A DNA stretch of 64,000 bases. It comes from Flavobacteriaceae bacterium. Lineage in GTDB: Bacteria > Bacteroidota > Bacteroidia > Flavobacteriales > Flavobacteriaceae. Made by a program: the position numbers and the translations under genes. Shown piece by piece: positions 9,383 to 15,763 of this stretch. Numbering within the stretch: the first letter of the stretch is position 1; each line of letters begins with the position of its first letter. Below the pieces are notes generated by a model. That model did not search any database, was not told the origin of the DNA, and saw only the letters and a list, made by a program, of their open reading frames with translations. The stretch is from the NCBI GenBank assembly GCA_030830005.1, contig JAURNV010000027.1, positions 1 through 64,000 on the forward strand, in the 5' to 3' direction.

Positions 9383-10578
9383 TATCTAACTTTTAGCGTT
9401 ACAAGGCTTATTATGGCAAGCATTATGGCAACAATCCAAAAACGACTTACAATTTTACTTTCGTGATATCCTAATTTTTGATAATGATGATGTAAGGGTG
9501 CCATTTTGAAAATACGCTTACCTGCTCCAAATTTCTTTTTGGTATATTTAAAATAAGTCACTTGAAGTACTACTGAAAAACTCTCTATAAAGAATACGCC
9601 ACATAAAACCGGAATAAGCAATTCTTTTCTTACAGCTAGCGCCAATACGGCAATTACTCCTCCAATTGTTAAACTTCCGGTATCCCCCATAAACACCTGA
9701 GCGGGATAGGTATTATACCACAAAAACCCCACAAGTGCGCCAACAAATGCAGCTACAAATACGACAACCTCACTAACGTGCGGGATATACATTACATTGA
9801 GGTAGTCAGCAAAAATGATATTCCCTGAAACCCAAGCAAAGAGGCCTAGAGTAAGCACAGCTATAGAAGCTGTTCCTGCAGCTAAACCATCAATACCATC
9901 TGTAAGGTTTGCTCCATTAGAAACCGCAGTTACGATAAAGATAACTGCTGGAATAAAAATAAGCCAAGCATAGTCTGTTACTCCAGCCCCAGCCCAAGCA
10001 ATAAACTCACTGTAGTCAAATTCGTTATTTTTAAGTAATGGAATGGTAGTTTTGGTAGATTTTTCTTCTTGTAAAAAGGCTCCTCCTCCGTCAACTTGTT
10101 GTTTAATGGTTACTTCAGGATGAAAATACAGGACCATACCTACAACTAGTCCAAGGCTAATTTGCCCCACAACTTTGAACTTCCCCTTTAGGCCTGCCTT
10201 ATCTTTCCTCTTAATTTTTAAATAGTCATCAACAAAACCTATAAGTCCCATCCATATTGTTGTGGTAATAAGTAAAATAATATAAATGTTTTCCAGATTA
10301 GTAAGCAGTAAAACCGGAATAAGCGTTCCAAAAATAATCATCAAGCCGCCCATTGTTGGAGTGCCTGCTTTTTCTTGTTGACCCTCTAAACCTAAGTCGC
10401 GAATGGTCTCACCCATTTGATAGTGTTGCAGCATCGCAATGATTCGCTTACCTAAAACTGCCGTTACTAATAGCGAACAAATAATTGCCACTGCAGCCCT
10501 AAAGGTTAAGTATCCAAACAATGAAGCTCCAGGAAATTGATAGGTTTTTTCAAGATATTCAAACAAGTAGTACAACAT
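9382..10578 (-). CDS. mraY: Phospho-N-acetylmuramoyl-pentapeptide transferase
   Basis: Integral membrane enzyme that links phospho-MurNAc-pentapeptide to undecaprenyl phosphate, forming lipid I. The catalytic FVDDYLK motif, the [15 protein letters not shown] loop, FMGDTGSL and the MAPLHHHYQ segment of MraY are all visible among about ten membrane helices. At 398 residues it is longer than the roughly 360 of E. coli. The extra sequence is a hydrophilic insert after the fifth helix (around residues 165-190), common in Bacteroidetes. Confidence 0.97.
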
Positions 10579-14026: not shown

Positions 14027-14336
14027 TTGTCTGTACAATTATTTTAATTGCTGCCTTATCTGGCGGAAAAATGCCATGACTTTGAAGCTTGCTGGCAAGT
14101 TGTGTTTCCATACGTTTGTGCATTACTTGCTCTCTAAGCGACACAAACTCACTACGAACAGATTGAAGCTCATTATTAGCTTTTGCGATTTGTATTACCT
14201 TTTGATCCACTTTATGAGATGCTGTAATCATTAGCCCCGCCAGAAAAAAAACGAATAGTATAAAACGCCAGTTTTTTGACGCCCCTTCTTGGACCAAAAA
14301 TGTTCCCTTAAGCAGTTTTATAAATCCTAACTTCAT
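14019..14336 (-). CDS. ftsL: FtsL-like divisome membrane protein
   Basis: Small bitopic protein of 105 residues: a short basic cytoplasmic start, one membrane helix (ILFVFFLAGLMITAS), then a periplasmic coiled-coil-like helix rich in heptad hydrophobics (KVIQIAKANNELQSVRSEFVSLREQV). FtsL proteins share this layout and little sequence, so the call rests on architecture and on the position between rsmH and the class B PBP. In this role it would support activation of FtsW and the PBP with a DivIC-type partner. Confidence 0.8.
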   Translation of the reverse strand: MKLGFIKLLKGTFLVQEGASKNWRFILFVFFLAGLMITASHKVDQKVIQIAKANNELQSVRSEFVSLREQVMHKRMETQLASKLQSHGIFPPDKAAIKIIVQTNE

Positions 14337-15238
14337 ATTCGTTCTGCTATTCGTAATTTCGCACTACGTGCTCTGTTATTCCTTTTAATTTCTTCATCAG
14401 AAGGGGCTTGCAATCCACCACATTTTTTAAAAAATTGGGTCGTGTTTCCAAAAACATCCTTCTCTGGTTCGTTATCGAAATTTCCATTTTGAATAAAACG
14501 TTTAACAAGCCTGTCTTCAATGGAATGATAACTTATCACACTAAGACGCCCGCCTACCTTTATGATGTCTTTACACTGCACAAGAAAATCCTTCAACACT
14601 TGGACTTCATCGTTAACTTCAATACGAAGTGCTTGATAAATTTTTGCAAGCACTTTATTTTCATTACCCTGAGGCAAAAATCCAACTAACAATGTCCTTA
14701 ACTGCTCAGTGGTTTTGATTTCTGAGGTTCTGTTATCTACAATGAAATTTGCTATTGATCGAGCGTTTCGTAAATCGCCATAGTTAAAAAAGATATCAGC
14801 CAATGCAGAAGCCGTATATTCATTAACCACATCTTTCGCAGAAGTTAGCTGAAGTGTATTCATACGCATATCCAACGGGCCGTCGTAACGAATAGAAAAC
14901 CCTCTATCAGGGGTGTTAAACTGGTGGGACGAAACACCCAAATCAGCGAGAACACCATCTACTTTATCAATTTTGTAAAACCTTAGAAAACGTTTTAAAT
15001 GTTTGAAATTTTGAGGAATTAACGTAAATCGTGAATCATCAATAGTGTTTTGCTGTGCGTCTTGGTCTTGATCAAAAGCAAACAATTTGCTTTGACTATC
15101 TAATTGGTTTAATATTTCTTTTGAATGTCCGCCTCCTCCAAATGTTGCATCAACGTAAACCGATTTGGGTTTAATTTGTAACCCTGTCACAGACTCCGTG
15201 AGTAAAACCGGTTTATGATACGCTGTCTCCATCATCAC
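14333..15238 (-). CDS. rsmH: 16S rRNA (cytosine-1402-N4)-methyltransferase
   Basis: SAM-dependent methyltransferase of the decoding-site cytosine 1402 of 16S rRNA. The start HKPVLLTESV, the SAM-binding VDATFGGGGHSKEIL motif, GVLADLGVSSHQFNTPDRGFS and the C-terminal VISYHSIEDRLVKRF are the classical MraW signatures. Length 301. Three consecutive ATG codons open the frame, all inside the end of mraZ, so the exact start is uncertain by up to two codons. Confidence 0.97.
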   Translation of the reverse strand: MMMETAYHKPVLLTESVTGLQIKPKSVYVDATFGGGGHSKEILNQLDSQSKLFAFDQDQDAQQNTIDDSRFTLIPQNFKHLKRFLRFYKIDKVDGVLADLGVSSHQFNTPDRGFSIRYDGPLDMRMNTLQLTSAKDVVNEYTASALADIFFNYGDLRNARSIANFIVDNRTSEIKTTEQLRTLLVGFLPQGNENKVLAKIYQALRIEVNDEVQVLKDFLVQCKDIIKVGGRLSVISYHSIEDRLVKRFIQNGNFDNEPEKDVFGNTTQFFKKCGGLQAPSDEEIKRNNRARSAKLRIAERI

Positions 15239-15677
15239 CCATTACTTCTTCTGCCAATGCAGCAAAATCTATTGCAGCCTCATCAATAGCTTTCTCATAA
15301 TTGGCTGCATCCCAAATCTCAATAATATTTACTGCAGCTGACAATACAACCTCTTTTTCAATTCCAGCTATCCGCGCCAGATCTCGGGGGATTAGCAATC
15401 TTTCAGTAGCGTCTAGTTCAACTACTTTTACTCCTGCGGTAAAGCGACGAATAAAGTCGTTGTTTTTCTTCTTAAACCGATTTAGCCCATTAACCTTTTC
15501 CATTAACAATTTCCACTCTTGAAGCGAATACAGTTCTAAACAAGGCTGAAAAACCGCGCGCTTGATAACAAAGGTCTGATGTCGAGCCTCTGACAACTGC
15601 TTTGATAAGGCAGTGGGAATTTTGACCCTTCCTTTAGGGTCTGCCTTACATTGATATGTTCCAATAAGATGTGACAC
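15213..15677 (-). CDS. mraZ: Transcriptional regulator MraZ
   Basis: First gene of the dcw cluster: a double-AbrB-like DNA-binding protein forming ring-shaped oligomers and, where tested, controlling its own operon. Two repeats are visible: GTYQCKADPKGRVKIP near the start and VKVVELDATERLLIPRDLA around residues 85-100, each with the D-x-K/E-x-R signature. The frame opens with GTG at 15677, about 23 bases after a good -7 promoter element; I see no alternative ATG. Length 154 is normal. Confidence 0.93.
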   Translation of the reverse strand: MSHLIGTYQCKADPKGRVKIPTALSKQLSEARHQTFVIKRAVFQPCLELYSLQEWKLLMEKVNGLNRFKKKNNDFIRRFTAGVKVVELDATERLLIPRDLARIAGIEKEVVLSAAVNIIEIWDAANYEKAIDEAAIDFAALAEEVMGDDGDSVS

Positions 15678-15699: not shown

Positions 15700-15763
15700 C
15701 AAATGTAATTAAATTTTACCACATTTTACCACATTTTACCACATTGTTGATAAGTTTTACCAC
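15700..15763 (-). promoter_or_regulatory. dcw operon promoter overlapped by GTGGTAAAAT direct repeats (probable MraZ sites)
   Basis: On the minus strand the Bacteroidetes -7 box TACATTTG lies at 15700-15707. Immediately upstream are three perfect tandem copies of GTGGTAAAAT (15713-15742) and one near copy, GTGGTAAAAC, 21 bases further (15754-15763), where a fourth would fall after one skipped repeat. The repeats cover the -33 region. A 10-bp period places all copies on one face of the helix, as expected for a ring-shaped repressor; MraZ is known in other bacteria to bind short direct repeats in its own promoter. Assigning these repeats to MraZ is inference. Confidence 0.75.

Follow-up and report, generated by a model that had tools for sequence, protein, structure and literature searches.

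Putative MraZ operator and adjoining DnaA-like box upstream of the division and cell wall operon in Flavobacteriales

Upstream of mraZ, a member of the Flavobacteriaceae carries three tandem GTGG boxes and, two base pairs from the first of them, the word TTATYAACA. On balance, we favour the reading that this stretch, the predicted operator-promoter of the dcw (division and cell wall) operon, combines an MraZ operator with an adjoining DnaA box. What is new is the DnaA-like box, which abuts the predicted MraZ operator in most of the order Flavobacteriales. Through the adjoining MraZ and DnaA-like sites, cell division may be linked to DNA replication. We infer from sequence that MraZ and DnaA bind here, in which direction they regulate and that replication is coupled to division.

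Results

The window, as we call the whole 64-kb stretch of DNA analysed, encodes on its minus strand mraZ (15,213–15,677, GTG start; PF02381, E 4.6e-25), whose product is the presumed binder of the boxes, and rsmH/mraW (14,333–15,238; PF01795, E 5.3e-88), the second gene of the dcw operon. GTG and TTG are the only start codons listed for mraZ in all 17 genus genomes, and an ATG start is also missing in a number of relatives outside the genus. On the minus strand, the region 5' of mraZ reads GTGGTAAAAC TTATCAACA AT GTGGTAAAAT GTGGTAAAAT GTGGTAAAAT TTAAT TACATTTG. MraZ boxes 1, 2 and 3 are perfect copies of the 10-bp unit GTGGTAAAAT in exact tandem (15,742–15,733, 15,732–15,723 and 15,722–15,713, respectively). 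A distal MraZ-type box, GTGGTAAAAC at 15,763–15,754 on the same strand, lies 21 bp upstream of the first tandem copy and matches GTGGTAAAAT in nine of ten bases. The earlier note on this DNA had counted three perfect tandem copies and a fourth at this distance; all four are present, but the fourth carries one mismatch and is not perfect. Within the window, the triple is the sole perfect threefold tandem of a 10-bp unit, and it ranks top among the six tandem arrays detected by TRF (score 66, 100% matches). In the assembly (1.55 Mb, 88% complete), the double box GTGGTAAAANGTGGTAAAA with up to two mismatches gave two overlapping hits, confined to the mraZ promoter, and the reversed-pattern control gave none.

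MraZ is present in 57 of the 60 genomes searched (the window's own included), and the upstream regions of all 57, which belong to the order Flavobacteriales, were aligned in the best-scoring register of the boxes. This is the comparison among relatives that the earlier note had proposed, and its outcome agrees with the claim: the repeats are found before mraZ in each of the 16 genus relatives, box 2 reads GTGG at every base in 57 of 57 genomes, and 46 of these have perfect GTGG in all three boxes. Similarly, 72 of 80 named loci, which include Aquimarina, Polaribacter, Winogradskyella and Salegentibacter and overlap with the 57-genome set, show GTGG three times, and the remaining eight read GTGG-ATGG-GTGG; the first twelve of these loci (MraZ 82–88% identical) are probably from the same genus as the window. 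The distal box, present as the earlier note had it, is mostly a genus trait: its position reads GTGG in 15 of 17 genomes of the genus, but in 9 of 40 relatives outside it and in 12 of the 80 named loci. All ten further class members have a triple that scores at least 10 of 12. Boxes of GTGGG type with the same period occur in several of the 30 best-scoring loci of the phylum (for example L094, L096, L098, L107, L108 and L118), and some of the 30 have no clear triple (for example L092). The class-level family f18 (L097, L099, L103, L109 and L421) carries a different array, GTGG(G/T)AAAAA-GTGTTATTTT-GTG, in which the middle box is GTGT and not GTGG; in L104 of this family, it is the third box that reads GTGT. 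The register and spacing of the boxes, conserved across families of the order, exclude chance. For the same reason a young, functionless tandem duplication, as which the three identical copies in the window might be taken, has next to no probability.

The boxes go together with mraZ. MraZ was not detected in 14 genomes of the phylum, and among the 12 of these in which rsmH was found there is no convincing GTGG triple before rsmH. The best triple scores 6–8 of 12 in 11 of them and 10 in one, versus 10 (three genomes), 11 (eight genomes) or 12 (46 genomes) in the 57 mraZ-bearing genomes, with the limit that family f36 alone accounts for eight of the 12, so that independent losses are few. Shuffles of the MraZ-less upstream regions reached scores of 8–10, those of the 10-scoring genome reaching 9. 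Since rsmH is kept and MraZ undetected in G047, G048, G051, G064 and family f36, the phylum seems to have lost mraZ on more than one occasion. For the window's MraZ, the AF2 model (mean pLDDT 85.7) matches structures of M. genitalium MraZ bound to its promoter, 9sz7 (titled 4 box promoter) and 9r4j. We find direct repeats with a GTG(G) core and a 10-bp period upstream of mraZ, and these very probably form a standard MraZ operator, of a known kind and in an unusual position. The sequence supports the operator reading that the earlier note had put forward. Its proposal that the helical phasing suits a ring of MraZ subunits agrees with excerpts of PMC7761207, in which MraZ of other bacteria binds four repeats at a 10-bp period, presumably as an octameric ring.

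The predicted −7 promoter element TACATTTG, of TAnnTTTG type, lies at 15,700–15,707 on the minus strand, at a fixed distance from the boxes. Promoters of Bacteroidota have the consensus −33 TTG / −7 TAnnTTTG. At mraZ, TAnnTTT[GA] stands 34–36 bp from the start of box 1 in all 80 named loci and in 50 of the 57 relatives. By contrast, a −33 TTG at a spacing of 16–22 from the −7 motif was found in 0 of 118 distinct mraZ promoters (both sets pooled, identical 75-base segments merged, promoters lacking the −7 motif dropped), whereas all of the first 14 hup promoters have ACTTGC about 20 bp before TAnnTTTG, as judged by eye. Box 2 falls where the −33 element would be, and the boxes thus do cover the −33 region of the mraZ promoter as had been claimed.

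A promoter in which TTG is missing from −33 could be one to which MraZ, bound to its boxes, recruits RNA polymerase as an activator. The position of the boxes upstream of −7, not downstream, would suit this role, and MraZ is described as an activator in mycoplasmas in an excerpt of PMC7761207. However, the boxes overlap the −33 site itself and, according to an excerpt of PMC8475190, loss of mraZ in M. genitalium raises other dcw genes, so that we regard an activating MraZ as unlikely. We prefer MraZ as a repressor: its ring, seated on the GTGG boxes with one box per helical turn, would cover the −33 region of this Bacteroidota-type promoter and shut down its own operon.

Between the distal box and box 1 lies a conserved TTATYAACA, which the earlier note had overlooked; in the window it reads TTATCAACA (15,753–15,745, minus strand, 2 bp from box 1). 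TTATYAACA occurs at −10 to −12 from box 1, that is with a gap of one to three bases, in 47 of the 57 genomes and at −11 (2-base gap) in 43, versus a mean of 0.018 and a maximum of 1 of 57 in shuffled upstream regions. The exact word is missing in 10 of the 57 relatives, where near-misses include TTATCAATA and TTTTCAACA. Locus L051 was scored as lacking it only since its boxes were registered one turn off, and TTATTAACAAAGTGG is present there. When T is also allowed at position 8 (TTATYAAYA), the word stands next to the boxes in 69 of the 80 named loci. Among the ten further class members, none has TTATYAACA beside its MraZ boxes. L116, a class member outside the order with two boxes only, carries TTATCAACA nearby.

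In the window, TTATYAACA fills the one helical turn that separates box 1 from the distal box, as it would if it did no more than extend the MraZ site or serve as a bendable spacer that keeps two groups of boxes on one ring. Either is quite improbable: 31 of 40 relatives outside the genus lack the distal GTGG, yet most of them keep TTATYAACA, and the word recurs at hup, dnaB and rpiB–rnr, where no GTGG triple was noticed by eye. TTATYAACA differs in one base from the DnaA consensus TTATCCACA given in an excerpt of PMC8203912. Measured against the canonical DnaA-box pattern TTATNCACA, TTATCAACA has A for C at position 6 and therefore falls outside it, so that we claim a shifted DnaA box and not a canonical one. 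Judged from its conservation, an oriC-like region and the promoters of replication genes, the word at mraZ is probably such a lineage-shifted DnaA box, with one family that fits poorly.

Of 60 Flavobacteriaceae genomes, 56 contain TTATYAACA twice within 30 bp, at 106 places in all versus 20 for the reversed pattern; the window's own genome has no such pair. We examined 30 of the 106 paired loci, of which 21 lie upstream of an HU gene (fmt–hup), four upstream of dnaB (accA–dnaB) and five at other places. Twenty further places, picked by eye, comprised nine at dnaB, three at hup, one each at a ribonucleotide reductase small chain gene and a tyrosine recombinase gene, and six others, one of them inside a gene. 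The looser pair TTATYMACA (at most 14 bp apart) occurs in 14 of 19 genomes from other families of the order; among 20 loci obtained with it, five are clearly hup (L293, L294, L295, L299 and L305), six are intragenic (two being the same place) and the rest lie elsewhere. Pfam confirmed one HU, one DnaB, the reductase and the recombinase as well as RNB (rnr), RpiB, GyrA and Clp of the window's own genome, the other assignments being made by eye.

Counted across the whole of the window's own genome, TTATYAACAA shows no clear overall enrichment (30 versus 23 reversed); a crude ORF scan places 26 copies in genes and four between genes (gyrA–clpC, mraZ, rpiB–rnr and a purL-like neighbourhood). Genome-wide, TTATCAACA is depleted in G030 (52 versus 104 reversed) and enriched in G038 (120 versus 60 reversed). 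At two further groups of the word, the genes were named by eye. At L139 (G030:C1:3873311-3873343), three TTATYAACA follow each other in 12-bp steps within a sixA-like frame near a polyphosphate-kinase-like gene, which may be a coincidence of coding or a DnaA site. At L302 (G059:C24), a frame flanked by hemE-like and hemC-like genes holds four TTATCAACA and one TTTTTAACA within some 180 bp; some bacteria have their origin in the neighbourhood of hemE.

The rpiB–rnr intergenic region is a putative oriC, a candidate origin by skew in one genome (G030). Our search of 40 Flavobacteriaceae genomes gave 30 rpiB–rnr loci, five of which (L383, L384, L389, L393 and L396) were dropped as no rnr-like start was recognised, leaving 25 intergenic regions with 18.2 kb. 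They contain 40 copies of TTATYAACA, spread over 21 of the 25 regions, versus 2.5 in base shuffles (16-fold), and ten copies of TTATYCACA versus 0.9. Also enriched are TTATRAACA (24 versus 2.5), the control word TAATYAACA (16 versus 2.4) and TTATYGACA (6 versus 0.7); TTATYTACA, TTTTYAACA and four scrambled words are near chance (1–4 versus 2.3–2.6). At one position, which could be matched in 16 of the 25 regions, we read TTATCAACA seven times, TTATCCACA three times, TTATTAACA and TTATTCACA twice each, and TTATAAACA and TTATCTACA once each, although the TTATCTACA case may be a different position. TTATYAACA and TTATYCACA thus alternate at one site, and this site precedes an A+T-rich stretch and a TTTTCTTTTAAAA-like tract. 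The rpiB–rnr region of the window's own genome (G000:C30, L172/L368), a candidate origin, measures 414 bp, is AT-rich (78%) and carries TTATTAACA and TTATCAACA.

In G030, the cumulative GC skew has its minimum near 890 kb (520–920 kb read, coarse samples elsewhere). Its rpiB–rnr region lies at 911 kb, about 20 kb from this minimum and, by eye, close to an rnpA-like gene, and dnaA is far from the minimum in this one genome tested. In G206 the skew is noisy and no rnr start was seen in the 1 kb beyond rpiB. We rejected an origin next to dnaA, as no box clusters were found in 16–20 kb around dnaA of G000, G038 and G053; in G030 a few boxes cluster some 9 kb away from dnaA (9826–9886), yet the skew minimum of this genome is near 890 kb. 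Canonical TTATCCACA was likewise rejected as the origin box, with 24 copies versus 108 reversed in G030, 24 versus 66 reversed in G038 and no tight cluster. Two TTATCCACA near 790 kb in G030 have no box neighbours.

The recognition helix of DnaA reads DHATV in G000, G030 and G038, and DHTTV in all five solved DnaA sequences found. Family f5 fits poorly with the DnaA reading: DnaA of G053 has DHST, the origin-like cluster of that genome consists of five TTATCCACA, and TTATYAACA, although present at mraZ in both G053 and G040, forms no pair within 14 bp in either genome. This would agree with TTATYAACA being bound not by DnaA but by some other regulator that acts on replication and division genes, beside a correctly recognised MraZ operator. 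The absence of TTATNMACA from the dnaA promoters of G000 and G030, the two checked, points the same way, and the sharing of the word by hup and dnaB fits any such regulator. On the other hand, the word stands a single letter from the DnaA consensus and interchanges with TTATYCACA at one rpiB–rnr position, the recognition helix of DnaA is altered, and nrdAB, dnaB, ftsZ and ftsL are among the reported or predicted targets of DnaA elsewhere (from an excerpt of PMC8203912). We therefore consider a regulator other than DnaA rather unlikely, and retain the shifted DnaA box as our preferred reading.

Discussion

In the mechanism we propose, TTATYAACA 2 bp from box 1 would be a DnaA box in the shifted form used by Flavobacteriaceae, and DnaA bound there would compete with MraZ or sit beside it. 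Because the promoter lacks a −33 TTG, DnaA may be an activator that recruits polymerase, and the dcw operon would then respond to MraZ level as well as to replication state. Only tentatively do we extend this to a composite dcw switch throughout the Flavobacteriales, in which DnaA activates a promoter without a −33 TTG, MraZ on three abutting boxes shuts it off, and the DnaA helix and its box have shifted together (DHATV, TTATYAACA). If such a switch exists, replication state would be wired directly to the expression of division genes, within a wider DnaA regulon that would include HU, DnaB helicase and, in at least one genome, ribonucleotide reductase. A DnaA-like box at a fixed distance from an MraZ operator would offer a clean, mutable test site for a link between replication and division, and the analysis yields a candidate DnaA box together with a candidate origin (rpiB–rnr) for Flavobacteriaceae. 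Titles and opening lines of abstracts among the literature matches listed named neither MraZ boxes nor a DnaA box at mraZ in Bacteroidota. The origin-like cluster of TTATCCACA in G053 may be compared with Elizabethkingia, for which an excerpt of PMC8994065 gives a predicted oriC with three TTATCCACA boxes.

The closest known systems share parts of this arrangement. Upstream of mraZ, E. coli K-12 (NC_000913) reads GTGGGAAATT GTGGGGCAAA GTGGGAATAA GGGG and thus shares the GTGG core and the 10-bp period with the window. The earlier note had set the window's site apart from a TGGG type of E. coli; this distinction falls, since core and period are identical in K-12. MraZ boxes of Escherichia coli mraZ are reportedly the subject of Eraso et al. 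2014. The fifth base of the boxes is usually T here, not G, and the 120 upstream bases of E. coli that were compared contain no TTATYAACA, unlike the window. MraZ represses dcw in E. coli, as stated in an excerpt of PMC8475190. The boxes of E. coli and B. cenocepacia are located downstream of −10 (excerpt of PMC7761207), whereas those of the window lie upstream of −7 and over −33.

Mollicutes, with M. genitalium, have in common with the window repeated GTG(G) boxes before mraZ and a matching MraZ fold. Their MraZ boxes are AAAGTG[T/G] repeats (Fisunov et al. 2016, as cited in an excerpt of PMC8475190); the word AAAGTGG occurs in relatives of the window with tandem GTGGTAAAAA, whereas in the window, where the tenth base is T, the sequence is AAATGTGG. 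Unlike Mollicutes, the order to which the window belongs has three tandem boxes with an occasional distal one, and TTATYAACA as their neighbour. DnaA sites at the promoters of division genes are described for C. crescentus ftsZ and B. subtilis ftsL in an excerpt of PMC8203912. The window likewise has a site for the initiator, here a predicted one, at a division-gene promoter, but this putative DnaA box abuts an MraZ operator at the head of the dcw operon, and its word is TTATYAACA, not TTATCCACA.
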